Source: Planctomycetota bacterium (GTDB taxonomy: Bacteria; Planctomycetota; Phycisphaerae; WQYP01). From it: DNA of 32,092 bases. Both the position numbers and the translations under genes were made by a program. The DNA lies in NCBI GenBank assembly GCA_021809365.1, contig JAKBAC010000023.1, positions 1 through 32,092 of the forward strand, written 5' to 3'. Below, one piece after another: positions 9,183 through 27,626 of the stretch; the first letter of the stretch is position 1; the number at the start of each line of letters is the position of its first letter. The notes below the pieces were generated by a model. The model was not told the origin of the DNA. It searched no databases and was given only the letters and a program-made list of their open reading frames with translations.

Positions 9183-9527
9183 CTACCCCGCCGCGGCCAG
9201 TTCTTTACCGCGTGCGCGACCCTTGGAGGCACCTCCTCCTGACCGGAGCCGCATGCGAAAATCTAACGAAATCCCCGCACGCGCTGCCATATTTACCAGC
9301 GTGTCCAAACTGAACAGCGCTATTTTTCCACGGCGTAGATCGCTGATGCGGGGTTGACTCACGGCAAAAATGTCCGCTGCTGCGCTTTGGGTCAGATGAT
9401 GACGATGAATGTACTGGCACAATGCGGCCATGAGAACAGATCGCAGGCGGAGGTTCTGCGCCTCATCTGAAGAGTAACCCAAATCCTTAAATACATTACC
9501 ACCGGAACGAGAAATTTTAATATCCAT
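9183..9527 (-). CDS. XRE-family antitoxin (HigA-like)
   Basis: This 114-residue protein has a helix-turn-helix at about residues 44-90 (LTQSAAADIFAVSQPRISDL), typical of Xre antitoxins paired with phage Gp49/HigB-like toxins (the COG5606 type). It would neutralise the toxin and repress the operon. It is the second gene, overlapping the toxin by 11 bases. Its start ATG 9527 has GGAG eight bases upstream, inside the toxin gene. The Gly/Arg/Ala-rich C-terminal tail is probably disordered. Toxin-first order is typical of higBA loci. Confidence 0.85.
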   Translation of the reverse strand: MDIKISRSGGNVFKDLGYSSDEAQNLRLRSVLMAALCQYIHRHHLTQSAAADIFAVSQPRISDLRRGKIALFSLDTLVNMAARAGISLDFRMRLRSGGGASKGRARGKELAAAG

Positions 9528-9852
9528 GCTGTTGTCTCCATATTAAAAGCGACCTTAGTCGCGCGCGAGCCAGGTTAATATCGCGTTCGGAAGTAGCTCG
9601 CGTCTTTTTCGTAAAAACGTGCAGGACATAAACGCCTTCCGCATAGCGGGCCACGTAAAGAATGCGATACTCATTCTGCGCGTGGATTCGTATTTCCTTC
9701 ACGCCCAATCCGACGCCAACCATGTTCTTGCAATCGGACGGCTCCAAGCCCATTTGGACCAGATGCAGTTGGTGGCCCGCTTCCTGGCGAGCCATATCGG
9801 AGAGCAGCCTTATGTCTTCCTTTGCTGATCCGAGCCAGAATAGCGTTTTCAT
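9517..9852 (-). CDS. RelE/HigB-type toxin (phage Gp49-like)
   Basis: This 111-residue protein matches the phage-derived Gp49-like/HigB family of RelE-superfamily toxins (the COG4679 type), which cut mRNA at the ribosome. Characteristic blocks are GVGLGVKEIRIHA, EYRILYVAR, VYVLHVFTKKT and DINLARARLRSL. Basic residues in the KEIRIH and KKT segments are the likely RNA-contacting ones. The toxin comes first in the operon, before the HTH antitoxin. ATG 9852 lies only a few bases after the predicted transcription start and has no ribosome site. Confidence 0.87.
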   Translation of the reverse strand: MKTLFWLGSAKEDIRLLSDMARQEAGHQLHLVQMGLEPSDCKNMVGVGLGVKEIRIHAQNEYRILYVARYAEGVYVLHVFTKKTRATSERDINLARARLRSLLIWRQQHGY

Positions 9853-14130: not shown

Positions 14131-14307
14131 TTATTCACTACGACTGCCAACGGATGTTTCGAACGCAACCACGCCAGCTTTGCGCGCCGCTTCAACCCGT
14201 TTCGCCCAGCGAAACATCCGATGCTTGTCCCCACCGCAATGTTTAACAATCCGTCGCCGCGAGGCGCGAACCCGTTCCACCACCGCGTCATCTTTGAATT
14301 CAGTCAT
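14131..14307 (-). CDS. Small partner of the PIN toxin (58 residues)
   Basis: This short gene begins MTEFKDDAVVERVR and ends TSVGSRSE, TAA at 14133-14131. ATG 14307 overlaps the end of the PIN gene by 8 bases and has GGAG seven bases upstream. A short acidic start followed by a VERVRASRRRIV-like helix is the pattern of small proteins encoded beside PIN toxins in many bacteria, where an 'ERVR-R' helix pairs with a 'K-R-F--A' segment. It is rich in Arg and Lys and lacks an obvious helix-turn-helix. I infer a cognate antitoxin or companion; no annotated family is certain. Confidence 0.65.
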   Translation of the reverse strand: MTEFKDDAVVERVRASRRRIVKHCGGDKHRMFRWAKRVEAARKAGVVAFETSVGSRSE

Positions 14308-14773
14308 GGTCAGTCTCCGTAAGCAAAAGGTCTGGTGTCGTCACGATCGGCGCAGCCAAGCCAAGTTCGGCATTGATCAATTGCAAATGTCGAACTTTAT
14401 TGGCATTGGCCAAGTGCCGACAGTTCCAAGTCAGCACGAAGTGCACTCCGTAATAGGAAGCTACGGCCAGGTGATACGCATCACCCAGCGGCATGAGTTT
14501 TCGCCGCACATAAACGGATACAATCTCCTCGACCGCCGGTACGATTTCAAGCAGATACAGAGATTCGGCCATGGCCAAAGCTTCGGACCGTCCCGGGTAT
14601 TGGCCTTCCTGCAATTCACCAATGACGAATGCCGAACCGTACAGGCGGTAATGCCGGCGCTCGCTTCGCCACCACCGCCGCGTGCTTTCCCGTCGGGCGA
14701 TCATCTCGGACTCGGATCGAACCTCGTAATAAAAGCTCGGGATGGTGGTCTCAATGTAAACTGATCTTTTCAT
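14300..14773 (-). CDS. PIN-domain ribonuclease (VapC-like toxin)
   Basis: This 157-residue protein has the PIN fold of metal-dependent RNases, used as toxins that cut tRNA or rRNA. The opening YIETTIPSFYY places an acidic residue (E8) where VapC has Asp; other likely metal ligands are E53 (FVIGELQ) and D98 (PLGDAYHLAVAS). The closing strand HFVLTWNCRHLAN carries N117, where many PIN proteins have Asp. This sequence style is that of the PIN subgroup encoded with a small downstream protein rather than an upstream antitoxin, and that partner is present here. There is no clear ribosome site; a TAGAAT box lies nine bases before the ATG. Confidence 0.82.
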   Translation of the reverse strand: MKRSVYIETTIPSFYYEVRSESEMIARRESTRRWWRSERRHYRLYGSAFVIGELQEGQYPGRSEALAMAESLYLLEIVPAVEEIVSVYVRRKLMPLGDAYHLAVASYYGVHFVLTWNCRHLANANKVRHLQLINAELGLAAPIVTTPDLLLTETDHD

Positions 14774-15755
14774 ACGATGGCTATTCTACCACATCCACGT
14801 CTACTCCGGCTCGCCGTCGAATGCCGTCGAATGCCAGGGCCAGAACACATGCTTTGTGATCGTCCCTACGCAGCGTCGGCGCTGCAGGCCATGTCCCCGG
14901 GCTTTCGTTCGCCGCGAAATAATGGCCGCCGACACGGCAAGCAAAATGTATTGTCACCGTAGTTGGCTTCGCTTTATGGACGCCACAGCCCAAGAACCGC
15001 CATTCCAGAACTCCTCCAGGCCCGGCTTGTTCACCGGTGGCTGCGTGCCGGATACGCTTTTTTCACCACGAAGGCACGACGACACGACGTTTTTTGAACC
15101 ACGAGGAAGGGGAGGCGAGCGGAGGGGAAATCTGGATTGGCGATCATCATGGCATAACGACGTAACACAATCTACGGACGTTTGAACCACAGAGGCGGCG
15201 GAGGAAAGCGGAGGACGGGTGGCGGGGGTGGGAAACCGAACCATCCCGGCGCGCCCGGGATAAACTCCTTTCTCGGATTCCACAGATTCTTGAACCGCCA
15301 AGGCGCAAAGAGCGCCAAGCCCGCGACTGGAGGCGAGGCCACCGGATTTGTGATTCAGGAGTTTTTCAGCCGATGCGACCAACGATGCATTCCTCTTCGA
15401 GCAATCCGGGATGGATTATAACGCCTGGCAAAACATCGACAAAGGAAATCAGGGCTGCCGTGCGTACAGCGAACACCCCCGAGCACATGTCAATCATGCT
15501 ATCTTTTTTATGGGTGCCTGTTTCTATTATCGACCCGCCCTTTGCCAACAAATATGGCCACACCCTTCTGGATTCTGCGTAGCTTTGCACGAACCTAACA
15601 AGGGGGTACAATCAACATCAGTCAAGATAGCCTTGATCCTTGTCGGAACAACGGCATACAGGGAGAAGCATGGCGCAAGCCGGCAATGAGGTGTGAGTGG
15701 ATGATGGCAATGGACAAGGAACATCCCGTTCTTGTATGTCAGCCATCCTCACATC
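14774..15755. other. Gene-poor spacer before the defence island
   Basis: Nearly 1 kb without a supportable gene. Its middle (15058-15323) is made of degenerate purine-rich repeats, listed separately. Open frames are present on both strands but their translations are compositionally abnormal and lack ribosome sites. The spacer marks the boundary between the toxin modules and the restriction genes, and I see no integrase or attachment site in it. Confidence 0.5.
15058..15323 (+). repeat. Four degenerate TTGAACCACGAAGGCG-type units
   Basis: Related units start at about 15058 (TTCACCACGAAGGCACGACG), 15092 (TTTTGAACCACGAGGAAGG), 15180 (TTTGAACCACAGAGGCGG) and 15291 (CTTGAACCGCCAAGGCGC), each followed by purine-rich sequence. 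The motif resembles a spacer repeat widespread in large planctomycete genomes. Confidence 0.55.
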
Positions 15756-18700
15756 ATGGGTTTTCGGCAACGCCGGAAATCACGCAATTACATTGGTACA
15801 GTGATCGCAATTGATGGGCTGGTTACTACCGTGAAAAGTGAAAATACTACAATGGAATTGCCTTTTCTCAACAGTGCCGGCTGGGATGATTGCATTGATT
15901 CGCGACTGCTCCGTGCGCAGGACTGGCAGGAGGCTCCGGAATTCAAGAGCCACGGCCACACGCTTCGGCGGCTCTTTACTGATCTGGAAATCAACGCTGT
16001 CCTTTGCGTCGGGAACCGCCCCACCGTTTGCGTGAAAGATGCGAGAGGGATGCCACCAAATGAGGTCGAGGATTTGAGGCGGCGGCTATGGAACATGGGA
16101 GCCACTGTTTTGTTGGTCACGGAGGGCAGGAGCGACATAAAAATATTTTCAACACTGTGCAAGCCCGCACCCGACGACAGCAACGGCAGCAGAGCACAAC
16201 TCTCTAAAGAGACAATACAAAATTTGGAGTCGGTTGAGATTGCTCTTAGATTGCGACGGCTTATTCGTCGCGTGGAGACGGGGGAAATCTATCGGGAAAA
16301 TAAATCTTTATTCGATCCCAAAAGTGCCGTTGATCGAAGTCTGTTGGAAAATTTATGCGCACTGCGCGAGAAGATCCTGTCGGGACGGTCGCGGAGGGAC
16401 TACCAGCGGGCCCACGCATTTATTGGCCGCTTCCTATTTTCCAGTTATTTGCTGGATCGGGGCATAATCGGACCTGCCTACCTTCAAAAAGCTCGTCTCC
16501 CGGAAGCGGAGGATATGGCAAAATTTTTAGAAAGAGCCGAGACGGATGGCTCTCGCGCTTTAGAGACACTGTTTGACGCATTGCAGCGGGATTTCAACGG
16601 CTCTCTTTTCGGCAATCTATTGGGTAATCATAGAATTGACGGCACGCAGATCGGTTATCTGCGAAGGTTTCTCGCCGGAGACAGTTTGGCTACCGGCCAG
16701 TTGTCACTTTTTAAGCTGTATGATTTCAGCGTTATTCCGGTTGAGCTTATTAGTTGCATCTATGAAGACTTTCTTGGGGCGGAAGCCAGGGCGACCGGGA
16801 GTACAGCTCCAGATATAGAGGCTAAGATGGGTACCCAACGCGCATCAGGCGCATATTATACCCCTCCCCGCCTGGCGGAATTGGCAGTGGATATTGCGAC
16901 CGAACGTTGGGAAACTTTGCTGGATAAACGTTGCCTGGATCCGGCCTGCGGCTCAGGAGTATTTCTGGTCATTATCTTCATTCGGATGGCGGAGGAGTGG
17001 CGTAAGCGCAATCCCAACGCTGACGCGCGCCGTCGCTATGACGAATTGAGGCGCATGCTGGCCGAAGATCTGCGCGGGATCGATACGCATTTGACGGCTT
17101 GCCTCGTTACCTGCTTCAGCCTGTATCTTGCTTTTCTGGATCAAATGGATCCCAAGGAAATAACGGAATTGCGGGAGGTTCTTGACCGCGACGGACGACA
17201 CAAAATTCTGCCCCATATCCTTTGGAAAGCCGATGGCACGGCTCCGAAGCCTCCGAACTCTGCGACCGTCCGGGAATCGGATTTCTTTGAGGTTCCGGCT
17301 GAAAAAACATTTGATCTTGTTATCGGCAATCCACCCTGGGTAAGCCGCAGAGCAGCTCCAAGTGCCAATAAGTGGCTTTCTTCCCCTGCAAACCCATATT
17401 TGGGCACGATCAGTGCGACTGAGAGGCCCCAGTCCCTGATGCCCGCAAAAGAACTGGCTGCCGCATTTATGTGGAAAGTTGGGTTGCATCTCAAGCCGGA
17501 AGGCCGCGTCTGCCAGATTTTGCCATCGCGAGTATTCCTCAGCAATAATACTGATCTTTTTCAAGCCGCATGGATAAACAAGCATCGCCTGGAAACGGTA
17601 TGGCTATTGGCGGATTGGAGTTTCATACTGTTTCCATCCGCAGCTTGCCCATGCTTTATTGGCCGCTACCATCCGCGCGGCGATGGGGAATCGTTGGGCT
17701 TTTTTGATTTCATCACGCCAAAAGTTGAATTGCTCGACCCGCGGGAAGCGCTAATCCCCGTGTATCCGGAAGATCAGAAAGCGCTTTCTGAATCCGATAT
17801 TGTCTCGGCCGCAAAACGCGGCGAGGCCGCCGCGGCATGGAAAAAACAGTACTGGGGTACGCCGCGTGACCTCCGGCTTATAGAGCGGTTGATGAGAATG
17901 CCGCGTCTGAATCGGATGGTAACTAGGCCACCGCGGAATCAAGATGCGGCAGCCAACCGTGTGGGATTCCAATGGTACAAGGGGCAGGGATTTCAGCCGG
18001 CCACTGCGAGTACGACGAATCAACAGCCGGTCTTTTGGAAGAAATCCGATCTTTTTCTTTCCGCCAATGTTCAGGTTTCGGGCCTCATCCTGTTGCGGAG
18101 CGAATGTAGGCCCATTGGCGTGCTTTACGAAAACACAGGCCTTCACAGGGCGAGGGCCCCTCAATTATTCAAGGCCCCTTTATTGCTTATCAACCAAGCC
18201 TGCACGAAATTTCTGTTCTCCGATTTTGACGTTTTATTTCATGATGATTTCCAATCAATCTGCGCGCCGGCTGGCGAGGAGGACGAACTTCTTTTACTTA
18301 CAGCCGTACTATCCAGCCCGCTTGCCCAATACCTATTGTTCCACACTACCGCCAATATTGGCGTAGAGCGTGACGTTGCCGGGCTGAAGGAAATGTTGGC
18401 TCTACCATTCCCATTACCGAAGGATACTGATGATCCGGCCAAGAGTACGAAAATTATGCGTGCGTGTGCTGAACACTTGCGGAAGCTCCACGCGATTCTT
18501 GGCAAACCGCAAAATCTCCTGCGGCACCAATCGCTGGTGAACGAAACACAAATGCATCTTAATAAGCTCGTCTACGACTATTTCACGGTTTGCGGTTGGG
18601 AGAGGCAACTCATCGAGGATACAGTAAATATATTCCGCCCAAGTTCCACACCGGCAACTTCGCATTCAAAGAAACTTTTCACTGTACAACGATCCACGCC

Positions 18701-19082
18701 AACCCACCGGGAGGAATATGCGGGTACATTGATCGAAACCTTTCGCGGCTGGATGCATGCGAAGAAAGCGATCTGGATTGAATGCACAGTCGCCGGTGAT
18801 CTGGGACTGGCAGTCGTCACCTTGGGCATCGGTGGCAAGGCCAGGGAATATAAGGAAACGCCACGCGATGATCGCGTGGCCGGTGTGCTTGAAAGACTGC
18901 GTAATGTTACCGCGCTGGACGGTGCAGTTTCTCGCGTGCTCCGAGGCTTTTTATTTTATGAACCGGATCGCGTCCACATCCTCAAACCGCTGAGCCGCCG
19001 ACATTGGACGAACACCGCCGCCTTGAACGATGCCGACGAGATTCTGACCCAGATGATGGAGGAAGATGGATGGCGCGATTGA
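15756..19082 (+). CDS. Eco57I-like N6-adenine DNA methyltransferase (long form)
   Basis: This protein of about 1108 residues carries a class I adenine methylase: GAYYTPPRLAELAVD, the AdoMet motif D395-PACGSGVFL, and the catalytic motif NPPW at N525 (IGNPPWVSR). Motif I before motif IV is the gamma-type order of Eco57I-like type IIG enzymes. An N-terminal region of about 360 residues precedes the methylase and a long C-terminal region with alpha/beta character, likely for target recognition, follows it. I see no nuclease motif in this chain; the next gene supplies one. The start is uncertain: ATG 15756 gives MGFRQRRKSRN, and a TTG at 15732 would add 8 residues; neither has a clear ribosome site. 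It overlaps the nuclease gene by 13 bases. Confidence 0.85.
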   Translation: MGFRQRRKSRNYIGTVIAIDGLVTTVKSENTTMELPFLNSAGWDDCIDSRLLRAQDWQEAPEFKSHGHTLRRLFTDLEINAVLCVGNRPTVCVKDARGMPPNEVEDLRRRLWNMGATVLLVTEGRSDIKIFSTLCKPAPDDSNGSRAQLSKETIQNLESVEIALRLRRLIRRVETGEIYRENKSLFDPKSAVDRSLLENLCALREKILSGRSRRDYQRAHAFIGRFLFSSYLLDRGIIGPAYLQKARLPEAEDMAKFLERAETDGSRALETLFDALQRDFNGSLFGNLLGNHRIDGTQIGYLRRFLAGDSLATGQLSLFKLYDFSVIPVELISCIYEDFLGAEARATGSTAPDIEAKMGTQRASGAYYTPPRLAELAVDIATERWETLLDKRCLDPACGSGVFLVIIFIRMAEEWRKRNPNADARRRYDELRRMLAEDLRGIDTHLTACLVTCFSLYLAFLDQMDPKEITELREVLDRDGRHKILPHILWKADGTAPKPPNSATVRESDFFEVPAEKTFDLVIGNPPWVSRRAAPSANKWLSSPANPYLGTISATERPQSLMPAKELAAAFMWKVGLHLKPEGRVCQILPSRVFLSNNTDLFQAAWINKHRLETVWLLADWSFILFPSAACPCFIGRYHPRGDGESLGFFDFITPKVELLDPREALIPVYPEDQKALSESDIVSAAKRGEAAAAWKKQYWGTPRDLRLIERLMRMPRLNRMVTRPPRNQDAAANRVGFQWYKGQGFQPATASTTNQQPVFWKKSDLFLSANVQVSGLILLRSECRPIGVLYENTGLHRARAPQLFKAPLLLINQACTKFLFSDFDVLFHDDFQSICAPAGEEDELLLLTAVLSSPLAQYLLFHTTANIGVERDVAGLKEMLALPFPLPKDTDDPAKSTKIMRACAEHLRKLHAILGKPQNLLRHQSLVNETQMHLNKLVYDYFTVCGWERQLIEDTVNIFRPSSTPATSHSKKLFTVQRSTPTHREEYAGTLIETFRGWMHAKKAIWIECTVAGDLGLAVVTLGIGGKAREYKETPRDDRVAGVLERLRNVTALDGAVSRVLRGFLFYEPDRVHILKPLSRRHWTNTAALNDADEILTQMMEEDGWRD

Positions 19083-19741
19083 GCCATTCGGGATCGACCC
19101 GTGACCTGCGAAGGGAATTATTCCCCCGCGGGTTCGCCGGCAAGGTGATGCAGCACATCGTTGAAACGTGGCGCGAGTTGGAACTGCCGCCTGATGTTTG
19201 CCATGAAACTCCCATAACCGCGCTTTTCAGGAAGGCATTAATTACCGCCTATGACGCCGCAGGCCGTTCATGGTTCATCACGTTGGAGGATCCGATCACT
19301 GATCCGGACGTTGGAACTCAGAATGGAAGGAATGATTTCCGTGTTTACCCGCCGAACCATGCGGGACAAACCGTTTTCTTTGCGGTTGAATGCAAACGTC
19401 TGCATGCCACCACAGATTCCGGCTTTTCGTGCCTTGCGGACAAGTACGTTGATGAAGGCGTACGCCGGTTTGCTGATGACAGGTACTCTACGGGCTTGCC
19501 GTGCGGGGGAATGGTTGGATATGTTATGGATAACCAGATGGATAAAGCGCTCGCATCTGTGCTAAAAGAAATTAGAAAGAAGGAACAGACATTGGGTTTG
19601 CCGATTCGGGCCGGAGTTCACACGCCGTCGTCAGCGTTACAGAATCATCGGTGGAGCATTGATACCCGGCACAATAGGTCCAACGGCCAGTTTACCCTGC
19701 ACCATGTGTTGTTGGGCGTCCGTGCCCGGCAGATTCCGTAG
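19070..19741 (+). CDS. PD-(D/E)XK nuclease-like partner of the methylase
   Basis: This 223-residue protein has a plausible PD-(D/E)XK core: D89 in RNDFRVYPP, then a strand with E107-C-K109 in FFAVECKRL. An N-terminal helical part (GKVMQHIVETWREL) may bind DNA or the methylase. I find no closer family name. ATG 19070 is preceded by GGAGGA six bases upstream and lies within the end of the methylase gene, so translation is coupled; a longer frame back to 19004 is unsupported. With its neighbour it forms a two-gene restriction-modification unit, the endonuclease half being this gene by inference. A non-catalytic DNA-binding role is the alternative. Confidence 0.65.
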   Translation: MARLSHSGSTRDLRRELFPRGFAGKVMQHIVETWRELELPPDVCHETPITALFRKALITAYDAAGRSWFITLEDPITDPDVGTQNGRNDFRVYPPNHAGQTVFFAVECKRLHATTDSGFSCLADKYVDEGVRRFADDRYSTGLPCGGMVGYVMDNQMDKALASVLKEIRKKEQTLGLPIRAGVHTPSSALQNHRWSIDTRHNRSNGQFTLHHVLLGVRARQIP

Positions 19742-19940: not shown

Positions 19941-21869
19941 ATGGGCCAAAATGATAATGACAATTCAGCCAAGCCTTTTGGGCCGGCCAATCCGCATCCG
20001 CTTTCTAAAATGAAAACGGAGTTGGTGTGGGAGGGAAAATATGATGAATATGGAAATCGCCGGGAGGTGGATATTGCCGGTTTGGCCATGCCGATGCAGC
20101 GCATTGAAACCATTGACCAGCCGCGCAGTGAAGCGGCCGCCGCCGGGCAGTTGGATTTGTTTAATAAAAAAACCAAACGGCTGGATGATTTCCGCAACCG
20201 CCTGATATGGGGCGATAACAAATTGGTCATGGCCAGTTTGTTGCAGGAATTCCGTGGCAAAATTGATCTGATATACATTGATCCACCATTTGATGTAGGT
20301 GCGGATTTTACCATGCAGGTGCCGATCGGTGACGGCTCCGAGGCCGTGGAAAAAGATCAGTCGGCGTTGGAGATGGTGGCATTCCGAGATATGTGGGGCA
20401 GGGGGACGGATTCGTATGTATATATGATGTATGAGCGACTACTCATTATGAGAGAACTTTTATCACGGAATGGCACGATATATATTCATTGCGATTGGCA
20501 TGTGGGACATTTTATTAAATTCCTTTGTTCGGAAATCTTCGAGAAAGAAAACTTTTTGAATGAGATCACATGGCATTATTATAATAAAATGGCTCCGGAA
20601 AGTTCCTGCTTCCCACGCGGATCAGATAGAATTATCTCATATACTAAATGTGCAGGTGAGCATATCTTCCATCAACAATATGAGCGTAGAGACAAACCGG
20701 TCAAACAATTAGTTCGTAGATTCATAGGCGGCAAAGCTATTAACGTAAGAGATCCATCGGGCGCTGTCCAATATCAAATTAAAGAAGAAAAAAGGCTGGA
20801 CGATGTCTGGCGAATATCCATGCTCCAACCTGCTGATAAAACACAATATTTAGCATATTCCACGCAAAAGCCCGAGGCTCTTCTTGAACGCATCATAAGA
20901 GCCTCCTCCAATGAGGGCGATCTTGTCGCCGATTTTTTCTGCGGCAGCGGCACCACCGGGGCGATGGCCGAGCGACTGGGACGCCGCTGGATTATGGCTG
21001 ATCTTGGACGTTTTGCCATTCACACCAGCCGCAAGCGGTTAATCGAACTTCAGCGGAAGCTGCACACCGACGATCAACCCTACCGGGCGTTTGATGTTTA
21101 CAACCTTGGCCGGTATGAGCGCCAATGGTGGCAAAAGGAAACCCTGCACGGTGCCAATGAGGAACATCGCCGCGTCGTGCTGGAATTTTTCCGCGCGGAA
21201 ATTATTTCTCCGGTTGGTTCGCCGTCGCCACTGCTCCATGGCCGCAAGGGCAATGCGTTCTGCCATGTCGATGGGATTGATTCCATATTTTCCCGTGAAG
21301 AGGCAACAGCCGTAGCCCAAGCGGTCAAGGCCGCCGGTGGGCGGGAATGTTATTGCCTGGCGTGGGAATTTGAAATGGATTTGCGACTTACCACGGCAGC
21401 GCTGGAAAAGGAACTGGGCGTGGCGTTGAAACTCATTCAGATACCGCGGGAAATTATGGAAAAAAACCGCAAAGGGCCGCCGCCATTTTTGGAGGTTGCC
21501 GTGCTCGAGGCCCAGGGTATCTCCAGAGACCCGGAGAAAAATGGCGACATGCCGGGCGTAGATGTAAAATTGACACGGTTTTTGCCATCGCTGGCGGAGG
21601 TCCCGGGCAGTGAACTTGAGGCGATAAAAGAACGGGCCATCAAAAGCGGTTTTGATTTTATTGATTTCTGGGCGGTGGATTTTGACTGGAAACCGGGCCA
21701 GCCCTTTAATCACCACTGGCAGGATTACCGCACGCGCAAAGACCGCTCACTGAAAACTGTCAGTGAAGCGGGGTATGTGTACGCCAAGCGCGGCGTGCAT
21801 ACGGTCTGTGTCAAGGTGGTGGACACGTTCGGCTGTGATACAAGTATCACGCTGGAGGTTAAGGTATGA
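19941..21869 (+). CDS. mod: Type III restriction system methylase (Mod)
   Basis: This 642-residue adenine methylase has the beta-class motif order of type III Mod proteins: catalytic DPPF at D114 (IYIDPPFD) precedes the AdoMet motif F333-CGSGTTG. Between them lies the target recognition domain, about residues 165-300, encoded by sequence clearly more AT-rich than the flanks. The C-terminal part (HGRKGNAFCHVDG, GRECYCLAWEFEMDLRL, and a beta-rich end VHTVCVKVVDTFGCDTSITLEV) is typical of Mod proteins paired with large DEAD-box Res subunits. Mod methylates one strand of its site and specifies targets for the complex. Res is encoded 1.9 kb downstream. Start ATG 19941 has only a weak GGGA upstream. 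Confidence 0.93.
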   Translation: MGQNDNDNSAKPFGPANPHPLSKMKTELVWEGKYDEYGNRREVDIAGLAMPMQRIETIDQPRSEAAAAGQLDLFNKKTKRLDDFRNRLIWGDNKLVMASLLQEFRGKIDLIYIDPPFDVGADFTMQVPIGDGSEAVEKDQSALEMVAFRDMWGRGTDSYVYMMYERLLIMRELLSRNGTIYIHCDWHVGHFIKFLCSEIFEKENFLNEITWHYYNKMAPESSCFPRGSDRIISYTKCAGEHIFHQQYERRDKPVKQLVRRFIGGKAINVRDPSGAVQYQIKEEKRLDDVWRISMLQPADKTQYLAYSTQKPEALLERIIRASSNEGDLVADFFCGSGTTGAMAERLGRRWIMADLGRFAIHTSRKRLIELQRKLHTDDQPYRAFDVYNLGRYERQWWQKETLHGANEEHRRVVLEFFRAEIISPVGSPSPLLHGRKGNAFCHVDGIDSIFSREEATAVAQAVKAAGGRECYCLAWEFEMDLRLTTAALEKELGVALKLIQIPREIMEKNRKGPPPFLEVAVLEAQGISRDPEKNGDMPGVDVKLTRFLPSLAEVPGSELEAIKERAIKSGFDFIDFWAVDFDWKPGQPFNHHWQDYRTRKDRSLKTVSEAGYVYAKRGVHTVCVKVVDTFGCDTSITLEVKV

Positions 21870-21948
21870 GAGGATGTTAAGATGCGATGGCTGAGGTTAC
21901 CGGCCCTTCCGCCCCGTTTGATCGGCAAAGGTAGAAAGGTTTTGCAGA

Positions 21949-22401
21949 ATGGACAACGCCGAATTTGAAACAATCCTATTGGATGGAAGCAAGACAATTG
22001 CGAGGGATATCCAATGGTCCGAGGATGAGGACCACTCCCCGGCGTGGGAATTTCGCGCTGCGGTGGATTCCCAGGCTGGCTGGCCGCTGTTTGTTCGCGG
22101 CAGCTACAACCCACTGGCGAAGGCCCTGACGTTTGCGCTTATCTTGAAACCAGTCGGAAGGATTTATGCGTTGGATGTCGGCAAGGACCACCATAATCCT
22201 ACCTGCCAACAAACCGGGGAGAAGCACAAGCACCGGTGGAGCGAGCAGTTTTCGGACAAACAGGCGTATGTTCCGGCAGATATTACCGCCGGGGTGGATG
22301 ATCCGGTTGCCGTCTGGGAACAATTTTGTGCCGAGGCTAAAATAGCGCATAATGGGAAAATGGAATCTCCCTCAACCCTGCAAAAGGAGCCATTCCTATG
22401 A
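21949..22401 (+). CDS. DUF6978-like protein in the type III locus
   Basis: This 150-residue protein carries a His/Cys-rich segment at about residues 76-98 (LDVGKDHHNPTC, then HKHRWSEQ), suited to metal binding, followed by YVPADITAG and an FCAEAKI segment. From memory this pattern belongs to DUF6978, which I recall as a neighbour of DUF1828 genes; that name should be confirmed. Function is unknown. It overlaps the next gene by 4 bases (ATGA) and lies 79 bases after mod, so the two form a translationally coupled pair inserted between Mod and Res. No membrane segment or signal is seen. An antitoxin-like or sensor role in defence is speculative. Confidence 0.68.
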   Translation: MDNAEFETILLDGSKTIARDIQWSEDEDHSPAWEFRAAVDSQAGWPLFVRGSYNPLAKALTFALILKPVGRIYALDVGKDHHNPTCQQTGEKHKHRWSEQFSDKQAYVPADITAGVDDPVAVWEQFCAEAKIAHNGKMESPSTLQKEPFL

Positions 22402-23177
22402 ATCCATCAGGCATGTGTGAAAGACTCTCGACGGGCATAGGCCGGCTGTTTGTATGTAGCAATGTCGGTGAATATGAGCGCATTCGCACACCGTATCTGT
22501 ATCCCGACGGCGATAACATAGACCTTTTCTGCCGGAAGCAGATGGGCACCGTTTCAATCAGCGATCTGGGAGAAACAACACGCTGGCTAAGAATGCAAAC
22601 GTCATCGCCGAGGCGGTCTTCGCGGCAGAGCCATTTGATTGATGATATTTGTCTGACGCACGGCGTGGAGTTTTTCAAAGGAACGATCGTAGCCCGATGC
22701 CGGGTTGACGATGATATTGCGGCGGTAGCCACGCGCGTGGCCCAAGCGGCAGTGCGGATTTCTGATTTATGGTTCACATTTCGTGCCAATGGTATCGAAA
22801 CCGCATCCGAGGAGGTCGCCGGGATTTTAACGGATAAGCACATTGCCTTCGAGCGCAACGAGCGTTTGATCGGACGCTGCGGACGAAGTTGGACCATCGA
22901 CTTTCACGTCCGCGCGGCCAGCCGCAGTTCGCTGGTGAGCGTGCTGGCGACGGGGAGCCGATCGGCGGCGCGTCCTATAGTTGATCATGTCGTGGCCCAG
23001 TGGCACGATCTAAGCCATCTGGCCGCCGGGCCGGAAGCCTTGCATTTTGTGTCTCTCTTTGACGACACGGCCGATGTCTGGCGGGAAGAGGATTTTCAAT
23101 TGCTTGCCGATTTATCAACCATCTCACGGCTCTCCGCGCCAGAGCAACTTCTGCTCGACTTAGATGCAGCCGCATAA
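22398..23177 (+). CDS. DUF1828/DUF1829 two-domain protein
   Basis: This 259-residue protein has the DUF1828 pattern near the N-terminus (YERIRTPYLYPDGDNIDLF, then TVSISDLGETTRWLRM, about residues 27-66) and a DUF1829-like C-terminal half (FHVRAASRSSLVSVLATGS and VDHVVAQWHDLSHL). The function of both domains is unestablished; they occur in phage and defence-rich contexts. The start ATG 22398 has AAGGAG eight bases upstream. It is coupled to the preceding gene by an ATGA overlap. Its position between mod and res suggests a part in immunity, such as control of Res or sensing of phage, but this is inference from context. Confidence 0.75.
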   Translation: MNPSGMCERLSTGIGRLFVCSNVGEYERIRTPYLYPDGDNIDLFCRKQMGTVSISDLGETTRWLRMQTSSPRRSSRQSHLIDDICLTHGVEFFKGTIVARCRVDDDIAAVATRVAQAAVRISDLWFTFRANGIETASEEVAGILTDKHIAFERNERLIGRCGRSWTIDFHVRAASRSSLVSVLATGSRSAARPIVDHVVAQWHDLSHLAAGPEALHFVSLFDDTADVWREEDFQLLADLSTISRLSAPEQLLLDLDAAA

Positions 23178-23179
23178 AT

Positions 23180-23265
23180 GTGCCAAAGCGCGTCAGGGCG
23201 GCCGGTGGGCACGAATGCTACTGTCTGGCGTGGGAATCTGAGATGAATTTGCGACTTGCCCCGCC
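23180..23265 (+). pseudogene. Relic of a second mod gene C-terminal segment
   Basis: The frame from 23180 reads RAAGGHECYCLAWESEMNLRL, closely matching AAGGRECYCLAWEFEMDLRL of the intact Mod (DNA 21331-21390). The bases differ at many third positions, so it derives from a diverged paralog rather than a recent copy. It begins 3 bases after the DUF1828 stop, has no start or domains of its own, and runs into stops. It overlaps the 3' end of the antisense 102-residue gene. Confidence 0.7.
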
Positions 23266-23526
23266 AGCGATGGCATGCGAGAAATATCCTAAATCTATGG
23301 AAGAATCCGTTACCATTTGGATAGAGTAGATGCTATCTTTGATGAATGCTTCCGCCACCTGCCGTGCGTCCAGAGCGGTCGAGTAGCAGCCGAGAATTTT
23401 TCCGGCCTTCATCAGTGCGTACCGATCCCGCCGGGTCGGAAGAATCGACGGGAGAGCTTTAAGAAACGCCTCGTAATTGCGGTCAACCTCCGCCTGAATA
23501 TCTGCTGAATTATGAGATTGGTTCAT
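23218..23526 (-). CDS. Small conserved protein, unknown, with altered C-terminus
   Basis: This 102-residue soluble protein resembles a widespread family of small proteins with the pattern NYEAF--LP, YALM--GKI, DARQVAEAF, and an SIQ-VT---DLGYFSH ending, often encoded near retropepsin-like genes; no such partner is seen here. ATG 23526 has AAGGG seven bases upstream, supporting expression. Family members typically end soon after FSHA; here the last 15 residues or so (GGASRKFISDSHARQ) are read from the antisense of the mod relic, so the natural C-terminus was probably replaced. It is antisense to the surrounding genes. The family name is not recalled, and no function is assigned. Confidence 0.65.
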   Translation of the reverse strand: MNQSHNSADIQAEVDRNYEAFLKALPSILPTRRDRYALMKAGKILGCYSTALDARQVAEAFIKDSIYSIQMVTDSSIDLGYFSHAIAGGASRKFISDSHARQ

Positions 23527-23722
23527 TGCATGCCCTTGAAAAAGAACCGTTCTCTTGACACAGATATAATTGTCATTGGCGTGCCGGAACAGTCGGCAAA
23601 CACAGCAGGTCCCGAGCCGTGGGATCCCATCCCGATGTTAACCGGGACTGCCGCCCTGAGGGCGACCCACGGGTGTTCTCGCGCACACCTGCATTAAATA
23701 TGTTATACCATTGGGCGGGACA

Positions 23723-23737
23723 GGTAAAGTTTTTACC
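23723..23737. repeat. Small hairpin upstream of res
   Basis: GGTAAA pairs with TTTACC around a 3-base loop, about 45 bases before the res ATG. It could be part of the res leader; no clear promoter could be fixed in the 256 bases between the antisense gene and res. Confidence 0.3.
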
Positions 23738-23782
23738 GGTAGTTTTTGCCCGTATTCGTGTTTTAGTGCTAGGTGACTCATT

Positions 23783-26700
23783 ATGGCCGGTGAAACGCCC
23801 GTTACCGAAGGACAATCCGCACTGGAACCTCTTTTTGAGCCGTGGGAAGAACCGCGCTCGCATCGCGTGCGGAACCCTGAATCTGGCAAACCGGCTCTGA
23901 TCATCCCGCACCGACGGCCATCGCCGATTGCCATCGTGCAGAATCTTCGGGCGGAGATCAGGCAATGGCGCGAGGGCTTTTACATCGGGGCCAGCGAAAC
24001 GACCTTCCGCTTGCTTAAGCACTGGTTCGAGCGTCCGCACCGCATGACAACGCCGTCCGGGGATGAATATGAATTCCGTTATTACTACTGCCAGCGCGAA
24101 GCCATTGAAACGCTGATTTATCTCAAGGAAGTGCGGCGGATTGATTGCCTGTCGCAACTGGTTGCTGATTTCGGCGGGGCGGACCGGGAAATTGCGGCAC
24201 TGGGAATTACCGAGGATGAAAACCTCTGGACGCGGTACGCCTTCAAACTGGCCACCGGGGCGGGCAAAACCAAGTGCATGAGTTTGGCCATGGTATGGAG
24301 TTATTTTCATGCCCTGCGCGAATCGGATTCCCCGATGGCCCGGCACTTTGTGATTATTGCGCCAAACCTCACGGTCTACGAAAGGCTCAAAGATGACTTT
24401 GCGGGCGGGAAAATATTTGACACTGATCCGCTGATTCCACCCGAATGGCGCGGTGATTGGAACTTAAGCGTGGTGCTGCAGGATGAAGCGGGCGGGACGA
24501 CCACGGGGGGCGTATTATATCTCACCAATATCCACAGGCTTTACGATAATTCGGAAAAGCGTGGGCGGGATGCGGAAACCTATGGTTTCATGGGGCCTGC
24601 GGTATCCAAGAGCAAGGCTCTGGACACGGGGGCACTGCTGCGAGACCGCATTACTTCCCATAAGCGGCTGATGGTGTTCAATGATGAGGCGCATCACGTT
24701 TGGGATCCTGATTCGGCGTGGAATGAGGCAATCGGGTTTCTCCATGACGCTACGCGGGCACGCACCGGCACCGGGCTGGTGGCCCAGTTGGATTTCTCCG
24801 CGACACCCAAGGACAACAGGGGGCAGCCCTTCAAGCACATTGTGTGCGATACGCCGCTGGGCGAAGCGGTGGACGGCGGCATTGTTAAAACCCCGATCAT
24901 CGGCAGCGCGGGTGATTCTCTGCATGAAGAACCGAGCGATAATGCCGCCTTCCGCTTTGATCGCCACCTGCGGCTGGGATATGAACGCTGGAACCGCAGC
25001 CGTGTGGAGTGGGAAAAAAGCGGCAAGAAGGCGTTGATGTTCGTGATGTGCGAGGACACCGCAGCCGCTGATGCGATTGCCCAACGTCTGAACACCGATG
25101 AGGCATTCAAGCATCTCAACGGCAAGACCATCAATCTGCACACGAACCTCAAGGGGCGGGTGAAGACGGTCGGTAAGGGGGCCAATGCGCGTAAGGAGTT
25201 CGTGGAAAGTGACCGCGAGATTACGGATGAGGACCTCAAGGCGTTGCGCGAACTAAGCCGCTCGCTTGATGATAATTCCACGCCTTATCGGTGCATTGTA
25301 TCGGTACTGATGCTGCGCGAGGGTTGGGACGTGCGGAATGTCACAACCATTGTTCCACTGCGGCCATACTCATCCAAGGCGGCGATTCTGCCGGAGCAAA
25401 CACTGGGACGCGGGCTTCGCCGCATGACGCCGCCGGGGGGACAGGGTGCGGCCGAATTGGTCTCCGTTGTCGAACACCCGATGTTTGCGGCGCTGTACAA
25501 GGAGCAACTTGCACAAGAGGGCGTAGCCATTGACTCGGTCGATGTTGAACACATTCCCGCCACGACAATATCCATCTATCCTGACGAGGCACGCAAGGAT
25601 TTCAGGGCGCTTGAGATCACGCTGCCCGGTTTGTCGCAGGCGCATCGGATTTTACCGACGTTACAAGGCTTGGCCCTTGATGACGTGAAGAAAGAATTCG
25701 CCAGATACAGACCGCTCCCGCTGGGCCGGGCGGTGAAGCCCGAAATAGATTATGAGGGAAAGCATTTATTCACCGGCGAGGTTGTGGAGCGGATGCAAAT
25801 CCATTTGCCGCTCCTGGGCACCGGTTTTGGCGCGGTGAGTTATTATGTGCAGCAAATTGAACAGGTATGCAAACTCCGCAATTTACATCCGGTACTGGGA
25901 ACGCTGATGCAGACATTCCTTGAGGAGATATTATTCGACGAGAAGACAAGTCTGTCGGATCAACGCCTCATCGCGAGACTTAGTGATTCCGACGTGGCGG
26001 AACACATTCGGGCGGTGTTTGTACCGCTGGTACGGTCGCGCACGACTACGGTTGAGAAACGTGCCGTTGTCGGACCGGCTATAAAGCTATCGGGCTGGAA
26101 GCCGTACCAGGTCACGCATAGCGAAACGCATCCGGCGGTGGAGGCTAAAAATACGCTCTTTAATCTTGTCCCCTGCAACCGAGCGCTGGAACAGGCAGCC
26201 ACTGCGTTCATTGATCACGCGGGCGACACGGCTGCATTTGCCAAGAATGCCGGCCCGCAATGCTTGCGCATTGATTTTCTGGGACATGCGGGAAGTCTGG
26301 CGTTTTACACGCCTGATTTTTTTGTCCGCACTAAACCGGGAAAACATTACATTGTTGAGACCAAGGGAAGAGAGGATCTGGATGTACCTAAAAAGGCAAA
26401 GGCCGCGATAACCTGGTGCGCGTCGGCGAGCAGCAAGGCCTGCCCTTGGGAATACCTGTATATCCCGCAGGGTGTCTTTGAACGCATGAAGGGTTCTACT
26501 CTTGCGGAATTGGCCAACGCCTGCCGGCCCGCCTTACAGAATCTACTGGAGAGCGATGAGGGTGCTGCATCACCGAACCTTTTCGCGGTCGATTTTGCAG
26601 ATGCTGATGAGAAGAAGTCGGAATCGCCCCTGGTTGCCGCAGAAGTGATTCATGCTTTGCCGCCGCGCTATCGGCAGGCAGCCGAACAGGCCACGACGCT

Positions 26701-27247
26701 TTTCCGGTTTATGGAAGGAAAGCCGGGAAGCAATTATGCGGCAGCATTTACCGCTCTTCTGGGGCCTCTGGATGATGCGGCCCGAGAATTGATGATTCGT
26801 CGGCTCGCACCCGCGATGCCCGTCGATTCCGCGAGCCAGCAATCATGGTTCGCGACCTATCTCCCCTATGGGACTGCGGCTGGTGTGCAAAAGCGTTACG
26901 AACAGACCGCATTGAATCTGAAAAAGACATTGGTTTTCAAAAGCGGAACCATGCCGATTGGCTTGTTGCGGACATGCCTTGATTTGGCTCTTAATGAGCG
27001 ATCACGACCTGGTAAAGTGTTTGAATCTATCGCCGCCGCGTTCAAGTTGGACGGTGCAAAGCGTCTGTTGGAACGAATTCAGAAGGTCTACGATTTTCGC
27101 AATGCCTATGTGGCTCATCAGCAGCAGGAACTTAAAGATGCGGGCTTGGCGAAACGACAGATCATTTTGTGGATTGAAACGCTCGGATTACTGGCCACAG
27201 AAATACGCGCGGCGGCAAGCACGAAGACGGAACAGCCGCCAAAGTGA
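23783..27247 (+). CDS. res: Type III restriction subunit Res with C-terminal HEPN-like domain
   Basis: This 1154-residue protein is the ATP-dependent helicase-nuclease of a type III-like restriction system. Visible parts: Walker A ATGAGKT (157-163), DEAH (301-304), SATP (339-342), and the helicase motif QTLGRGLRR after LREGWDVRNVT. A PD-(D/E)XK nuclease follows with D845 (TPDFF) and E859-T-K861 (VETKG). The last 200 residues are helical and contain R1106-N-AYVA-H1112 in a DFRNAYVAHQ context, the RNxxxxH pattern of HEPN RNases, which is beyond the usual end of Res. ATG 23783 has a GGTGA ribosome site. It lies 1.9 kb downstream of mod, separated by two DUF genes and a relic. A purely structural helical tail is the alternative for the extension. 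Confidence 0.93.
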   Translation: MAGETPVTEGQSALEPLFEPWEEPRSHRVRNPESGKPALIIPHRRPSPIAIVQNLRAEIRQWREGFYIGASETTFRLLKHWFERPHRMTTPSGDEYEFRYYYCQREAIETLIYLKEVRRIDCLSQLVADFGGADREIAALGITEDENLWTRYAFKLATGAGKTKCMSLAMVWSYFHALRESDSPMARHFVIIAPNLTVYERLKDDFAGGKIFDTDPLIPPEWRGDWNLSVVLQDEAGGTTTGGVLYLTNIHRLYDNSEKRGRDAETYGFMGPAVSKSKALDTGALLRDRITSHKRLMVFNDEAHHVWDPDSAWNEAIGFLHDATRARTGTGLVAQLDFSATPKDNRGQPFKHIVCDTPLGEAVDGGIVKTPIIGSAGDSLHEEPSDNAAFRFDRHLRLGYERWNRSRVEWEKSGKKALMFVMCEDTAAADAIAQRLNTDEAFKHLNGKTINLHTNLKGRVKTVGKGANARKEFVESDREITDEDLKALRELSRSLDDNSTPYRCIVSVLMLREGWDVRNVTTIVPLRPYSSKAAILPEQTLGRGLRRMTPPGGQGAAELVSVVEHPMFAALYKEQLAQEGVAIDSVDVEHIPATTISIYPDEARKDFRALEITLPGLSQAHRILPTLQGLALDDVKKEFARYRPLPLGRAVKPEIDYEGKHLFTGEVVERMQIHLPLLGTGFGAVSYYVQQIEQVCKLRNLHPVLGTLMQTFLEEILFDEKTSLSDQRLIARLSDSDVAEHIRAVFVPLVRSRTTTVEKRAVVGPAIKLSGWKPYQVTHSETHPAVEAKNTLFNLVPCNRALEQAATAFIDHAGDTAAFAKNAGPQCLRIDFLGHAGSLAFYTPDFFVRTKPGKHYIVETKGREDLDVPKKAKAAITWCASASSKACPWEYLYIPQGVFERMKGSTLAELANACRPALQNLLESDEGAASPNLFAVDFADADEKKSESPLVAAEVIHALPPRYRQAAEQATTLFRFMEGKPGSNYAAAFTALLGPLDDAARELMIRRLAPAMPVDSASQQSWFATYLPYGTAAGVQKRYEQTALNLKKTLVFKSGTMPIGLLRTCLDLALNERSRPGKVFESIAAAFKLDGAKRLLERIQKVYDFRNAYVAHQQQELKDAGLAKRQIILWIETLGLLATEIRAAASTKTEQPPK

Positions 27248-27277
27248 CAACCTATACCAGGACGTGACACCCCGGTG

Positions 27278-27305
27278 AAACGGGGACGTACCCCGTTTTA
27301 ATATT
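27278..27305 (+). terminator. Rho-independent terminator after res
   Basis: AAACGGGG (27278-27285) pairs with CCCCGTTT (27291-27298) around ACGTA, followed by TTAATATT. It lies 30 bases after the res stop and closes the defence island. Confidence 0.75.
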
Positions 27306-27626
27306 CGGCGAGATTCAACTTGGTTTGCATACTCTTCATACAATGCCTCTACTGATCAGGCCTCGCAGGCTCTCTTACGTGTCCGATGGATCCACGCCGT
27401 ACCCTTTAGCTCTCCTCGCAGAGTGCGAAAGGCCACCCTTTCGTTTTCACCCTCCGTTATTATAGCTGTTTACACCGTTTACAATTCGTGTGGGCCAGCA
27501 CAGCTGCGCATTGAAATCAATACCAGTAGCGCCTTGCTTCGAAGCATTGGCTGGATTGTATTGGGGGCTGTCTTTGGTATTACCTGGAATTATGCGCTCT
27601 GATGAAAGCTCAATAGTAAGATTTAA
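27306..27626. other. Spacer with open frames on both strands, probably decayed
   Basis: The plus strand has an open frame of about 100 codons ending near 27602 in LLRSIGWIVLGAVFGITW, which looks like a membrane helix. The minus strand reads RTLRGELKGTAWIHRTRKR, a stop, then LYEEYANQVESRRIL in the same frame. Neither has a start or ribosome site. It may be the remains of one or two genes; no family can be named. Confidence 0.35.

Follow-up and report, generated by a model that had tools for sequence, protein, structure and literature searches.

The closest described counterpart of the gene pair studied here, which lies inside a type III restriction-modification (R-M) module on a 32,092-nucleotide stretch of DNA from a Planctomycetota bacterium (contig JAKBAC010000023.1; "the window" denotes this whole stretch), is PDC-M24, listed in PADLOC-DB v2 (2023) as a two-gene phage-defence candidate. 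PADLOC candidates of the PDC kind are described as mostly unvalidated in the available text of PMC10855318, and in the accessible text of the open-licence literature we found no functional work on DUF1828, DUF6978 or PDC-M24; Staphylococcus aureus gene tables, as far as the available portions of PMC10821479 and PMC13210130 go, list DUF1828/DUF6978 genes, one of them beside a prophage site. HipAD (DS-6), a validated system, consists of a HipA-like kinase and a DUF3037-DUF1829 protein proposed to be the antitoxin, and the available part of its description does not mention R-M. Among toxins linked to R-M, the PrrC gene is positioned inside an hsd cassette. In PrrC-EcoprrI, according to the available text of PMC2610378, an anticodon nuclease is silenced by the type I R-M enzyme and freed by phage Stp, a translation-disabling back-up that sets a precedent for such a link; PrrC has ABC ATPase motifs, and kinship of PrrC with either protein of our pair was neither sought nor found. 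TgvAB is likewise a two-gene cassette within an R-M operon, of type I, and defends without HsdR restriction activity, but it is GmrSD-like and belongs to other families (accessible text of PMC11411939). TumE of the TumE-TumA pair is a validated translation-blocking toxin with two helices on a seven-stranded antiparallel sheet and no confident match in the PDB (accessible text of PMC10584680).

The module in the window is made up of four genes:

19941..21869, forward strand: Mod, type III (beta-class N6/N4) DNA methyltransferase, 642 aa (PADLOC, Pfam, motifs)
21949..22401, forward strand: protein A (DUF6978 / PDC-M24A), 150 aa (Pfam, PADLOC, AlphaFold2)
22398..23177, forward strand: protein B (DUF1828 / PDC-M24B), 259 aa (Pfam, PADLOC, predicted structure)
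23783..27247, forward strand: Res, type III-like restriction subunit, 1154 aa, helicase and PD-(D/E)XK motif (Pfam, NCBIfam, motifs)

Mod matches PADLOC MTase_III (E 3.5e-225) and Pfam N6_N4_Mtase (E 7.1e-42), and its intact motifs, with DPPF ahead of FCGSGTTG, stand in the beta-class order of the type III Mod family. Res matches Pfam ResIII (E 3.7e-12), the NCBIfam BPTD_3080 family restriction endonuclease (E 4.8e-73, under that model's cut-off) and, in part, PADLOC REase_III (E 7.6e-22), and carries the motifs GAGKT, DEAH, GRGLRR and PDFF..ETKG of a superfamily 2 helicase with a C-terminal PD-(D/E)XK domain. The genes of A and B overlap as ATGA and sit between Mod and Res, as an earlier note on this DNA had proposed, while on plasmid NZ_AP017989 a related Mod-Res pair has no insert and its genes overlap by one base. 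Judged from its sequence, the locus is a type III R-M module whose modification and restriction genes are separated by a self-contained A-B cassette. The same note had called it the best candidate for an undescribed defence system, a description that no longer holds, as the pair is already catalogued: both proteins match PDC-M24 in the same order, adjacent and nearly over their full length (E 3.5e-68 for A, 3.1e-99 for B), and no difference from it was found. The feature is thus a real, well conserved, type III-embedded copy of a known candidate. A Phycisphaerae record carries an A and a B that are 86-87% identical.

To place the pair among its relatives, we surveyed 38 B loci (L numbers below), 13 found by similarity in genome contigs and 25 by five profile searches in phylum draws of 349, 347, 345, 350 and 247 genomes, the last draw overlapping the third. 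From the first profile search only the new hit below E 1e-20 (G150) was counted; the hits in the remaining 9 genomes new to that search, another site in G001 and a second G1359 contig piece were excluded, and several hits left out of that search's count did serve in alignments. Two pairs of loci are near-identical (L002/L003 and L008/L009), which leaves 36 non-redundant loci. R-M genes were sought with local hidden Markov models (HMMs) seeded with proteins of L002, L006, L007 and L009, which favour those types, and with Mod and Res queries from the window and L052 only. The 55 control regions (15 hand-picked coordinates and 40 random ones) came from 10 contigs of B-bearing genomes and include three partly overlapping pairs; some B-locus contigs are short, so that R-M may be missed there. 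The pairing of A with B is near-constant, A lying directly upstream of B in 34 of the 38 loci; no A was found in L010, L037 and L038, and L043 stops at the contig edge. Of the B loci, 14/38 (12/36 non-redundant) had an R-M gene at most 2.5 kb away on their own strand, as did, by the same criterion, 1.0/55 controls (strand average; 0 as plus, 2 as minus; Fisher p 7e-6 and 4e-5, respectively, against 1/55). Setting 12/36 against 2/55 gives p 2e-4, and in the phylum-draw loci alone the count was 5/25 (p 0.01). Controls scored within 8 kb on either strand had R-M in 2/55. A link of the pair with R-M genes beyond chance is therefore supported. A link with type III genes in particular was not supported, since 13 of the 14 R-M-adjacent loci are of type I and one is of type III; we rejected the pair as a type III-specific accessory on this count.

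Recurrent embedding of the pair in R-M operons was seen across records labelled with several phyla. In seven loci B is enclosed by a type I operon, hsdM lying upstream and hsdR downstream (L002, L003, L007, L009, L010, L011, L054), five of them with hsdS also upstream and L010 without A. B precedes hsdR in L006, L008 and L012, lies between hsdM and hsdS in L035 and stands ahead of hsdM in L043 and L047, and L052, with the order Res-A-B-Mod, is a second type III case. PADLOC backs HsdM, HsdS and HsdR in L009, and Mod together with PDC-M24A/B in L052, whose Res has no PADLOC match but does match Pfam ResIII; the R-M assignments in the remaining loci rest on the local HMMs. The operon in L009 (2141-11924) reads HsdM, an NTase_sub_bind protein, HsdS, SIR2 PDC-S65, A, B, HsdR; its HsdS has an extra N-terminal part and the frame of A is split.

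Protein A matches DUF6978 (E 1.4e-11) and, at E up to 0.1, no other Pfam family, neither TumE (PF20126) nor any kinase family. Its AlphaFold2 model (predicted local distance difference test, pLDDT, 92.5) starts with a helix, continues with seven strands and closes with a second helix and a short strand of three residues. The earlier note had ascribed a His/Cys-rich segment to the pair; it does exist, but in A only, at residues 81-95 (HHNPTCQQTGEKHKH), and does not extend across both proteins. Across 58 aligned sequences, the window's own among them, seven residues do not vary (H81, N83, G90, H93, K94, H95, W97); they cluster in the motif HHNPxC..G..HKHRW. Similar H..HxH layouts occur in 150-180-aa proteins that precede DUF1828 proteins in L021, L022, L024 and L029; those of L022 and L029 have no Pfam family above cut-off. 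Profile comparisons with hhalign, in which scores were set against column shuffles, tie the group of these four loci to DUF6978 via intermediates (probability about 87-90) and to TumE with probability 58. Within A, the links run from A1, the subfamily of the window, to Asub2 (96.6) and from Asub2 to Asub3 (90.5), with pooled A against Asub3 at 86.9. A tentative likeness of the predicted pair to TumE-TumA (DUF6516/PF20126) lies in two helices and seven strands, a bicistronic arrangement and an aligned H..HxH motif; on the TumE side, the comparison draws on the available text of its description. According to the same text TumE mostly lies downstream of its partner, whereas A is upstream of B.

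Protein B matches DUF1828 (E 5.3e-12), and its AlphaFold model (pLDDT 85.7) has two domains. Fold matches of the predicted structure liken the N-domain to type III secretion chaperones and YbjN, and the C-domain has a predicted PD-(D/E)XK-like core fold. No (D/E)xK catalytic motif occurs anywhere in B, on which ground we rejected it as an active nuclease. In the homologue from L052, DUF1829 was found (E 3.5e-28) in the region matching the C-domain of B, and altogether Pfam DUF1829 was present in 2 of the 10 B-type proteins scanned (L052 and L025). The pair thus resembles HipAD as a two-gene module whose second protein carries DUF1829, in our case in the C-domain region of a B homologue, but differs from it in that A has no kinase family match and B has DUF1828 and no DUF3037 match.

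We propose that A and B form a toxin/partner module in R-M operons that serves as a second line of defence, a reading to which we give a probability of about 0.45. In this scheme A, a small protein whose His/Lys/Asn cluster is invariant, would be the toxic effector, and B would bind and restrain it through its chaperone-like N-domain fold, while the C-domain of B, PD-(D/E)XK-like and lacking the catalytic motif, may be of the DUF1829 kind found in the HipAD partner. Growth would stop once A is set free, either by infection or by a failure of the adjacent restriction enzyme, and in this way the pair would back up R-M. A itself is possibly a distant relative of TumE. The profile comparison gives this kinship partial support, and we treat it as a lead.

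Several results weigh against this proposal. The model of A has no confident fold match in the PDB or BFVD. The window's own A subfamily compared with TumE directly reached a probability of 0.4-0.5%, which is not significant, and A1 compared with Asub3 directly gave 1.3, so that the two are linked only via intermediates. Against a TumE profile of 13 proteins gathered by HMM, scores lay above the shuffles but probabilities were low: 58 for Asub3 (score 35.9, the best of 200 column shuffles being 18.9), 9.7 for pooled A with Asub3 (25.0 against 17.2 in 100 shuffles) and 8.5 for pooled A without Asub3 (24.8, best shuffle 21.5). When the TumE profile had only five proteins, pooled A gave a figure of 21.1 and Asub3 one of 6.8, and in the PDB a TumE query reached no sequence with E below 0.49. 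The window's B has no Pfam DUF1829 match at E up to 10. Furthermore, no R-M gene is adjacent in 24/38 loci and none lies in the fetched flank in 23/38, and four loci (L030, L032, L034, L037) are apparently set among housekeeping genes, as judged by eye; the tie to R-M is therefore not general, and the pair is a separable cassette. Finally, B is interrupted and A whole in L012 and L033, which counts against a toxic A, since a plain toxin would not be tolerated there. A is damaged or absent and B whole in six loci (L008=L009, L010, L013, L030, L031, L036), and both are damaged or partly missing in L034, L037 and L038; errors in metagenome-assembled genomes could lie behind such copies, and these counts are soft. 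In-frame TAG codons interrupt B at different places in L012 (1), L033 (1) and L034 (2).

The repeated embedding without a fixed R-M type, and the copies away from R-M, could also be explained if A-B were a defence effector in its own right and not toxic, such as a pair that depends on modification or binds nucleic acids, and only hitchhiked in the R-M operons of a defence island in an arrangement like that of TgvAB. Other genes nest at the same spot, as the SIR2 PDC-S65 and nucleotidyltransferase-substrate-binding proteins of L009 do, and TgvAB itself provides the precedent of a cassette that defends without the restriction activity of its host operon. Direct DNA cutting is, however, not obvious for a pair in which B lacks (D/E)xK and A has no recognised fold, and the DUF1829 precedent, in the available description of HipAD, is a proposed antitoxin; we regard the independent effector as rather unlikely, though deserving consideration. 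Another explanation gives the pair an auxiliary or regulatory role within the R-M system, in which it acts on Res through dosage, assembly or control during establishment. Its position between Mod and Res in the window would fit, as would the tight junctions in type I operons, where the end of B and the start of HsdR overlap or lie at most 4 nt apart in L002, L003, L008 and L009 and overlap in L011. Yet the 24 B loci without an adjacent R-M gene speak against a dedicated regulator of Res, a role that the earlier note had offered as one possibility, and the related Mod-Res pair on NZ_AP017989 lacks A-B, while A-B accompanies unrelated R-M types. Such an accessory role is in our judgement improbable.

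The 605-nt gap between B and Res, and the region after res, hold further features:

23182..23273, forward strand: mod gene fragment, 92 nt (blastn E 2e-20; direct repeat D1)
23218..23526, reverse strand: antisense open reading frame (ORF), 102 aa, unknown family (ORF list)
23599..23693, reverse strand: DUF3800-VII RNA, Rfam RF02967 (cmscan)
27276..27300 (about), forward strand: possible intrinsic terminator hairpin after res (RNA fold)

The fragment is 83% identical in nucleotides to mod 21315-21405; what had been taken for a decayed second mod is thus indeed mod-derived, but it is a single 92-nt stretch with no recognisable gene. The small antisense gene claimed for the gap is present (23526-23218), and its 3' end overlaps the mod fragment; it has no family match in Pfam, NCBIfam, PADLOC or PHROG, no plasmid match and no confirmed relative among viral contigs. 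The DUF3800-VII RNA, overlooked earlier, scores 73.3 bits (gathering threshold 36.2) over its full length (model positions 1-90 of 90); it is divergent from res and shares the minus strand with the antisense ORF, ending 72 nt upstream of it. No DUF3800 protein was identified beside it, the adjoining antisense ORF having no Pfam match; a pattern scan for relatives of the RNA gave 33 viral contigs, of which Rfam confirmed 0, and a search in genomes found 0/59 but also 0/14 in controls and is thus uninformative on absence. That all forward genes end at one terminator after res is plausible from the hairpin, the 45-nt stretch 27268-27312 folding at -17.6 kcal/mol (z -2.3), but a consensus terminator scan gives it no backing: the hairpin was not listed, and terminator-like sites were at chance level (14 vs 12.7), as were those of a promoter scan.

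As to mobile relatives, tblastn with B at E 1e-3 found nothing among 50,697 phage and 72,556 plasmid records, and a pattern scan of IMG/VR, able to detect close relatives only, gave no confirmed match; distant phage relatives of B were found in PHROGs (phrog_5059, E 2.9e-17; phrog_1960, E 4.4e-11), and A has a weak match there (phrog_2017, E 9e-4). That A-B has no role in defence and is carried along as mobile debris of an island prone to integration would agree with the phrog_5059 relationship, with the recombination signs in the gap (mod fragment, orphan antisense ORF, DUF3800-VII RNA) and with the damaged copies in other loci, but is very doubtful in view of homologues numbering in the hundreds (951 and 978 proteins within the E-value limits applied) with invariant residues and of an A-B order maintained across subfamilies.

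Upstream of the type III module lies what resembles a second R-M system (15732-19741, forward strand), formed by a type IIG-like methyltransferase (15732-19082; PADLOC E 9.5e-66) whose gene overlaps the following one for a 245-aa protein that has a D...VECK (PD-(D/E)XK-like) motif but lacks a good family match; this makes the region a small defence island. A probable toxin-antitoxin pair is located at 9183-9852 on the reverse strand and consists of a helix-turn-helix protein (phrog_2339) and a phrog_2523 protein weakly matching the toxin family phrog_3445. The 157-aa ORF at 14300-14773 (reverse strand), which resembles a PIN-domain protein, had no match in PHROGs, the sole library run.

A more specific form of the toxin/partner proposal, speculative and itself improbable, is that the pair guards R-M. 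Here a TumE-like translation toxin A would be kept in check by B, a chaperone-antitoxin of the DUF1828/DUF1829 kind monitoring the adjacent restriction enzyme, and phage anti-restriction proteins that disarm type I or type III R-M would unleash A, as Stp does with PrrC, an unrelated pair thereby serving several R-M types. What is new here is the architecture and a testable toxin-partner model: PDC-M24, otherwise, as far as we could find, only a name in a candidate list, gains a domain architecture, a toxin-partner hypothesis that has a precedent, and a preference for R-M operons expressed in counts. If A-B does guard R-M, it would represent a second, unrelated solution to the problem solved by PrrC.

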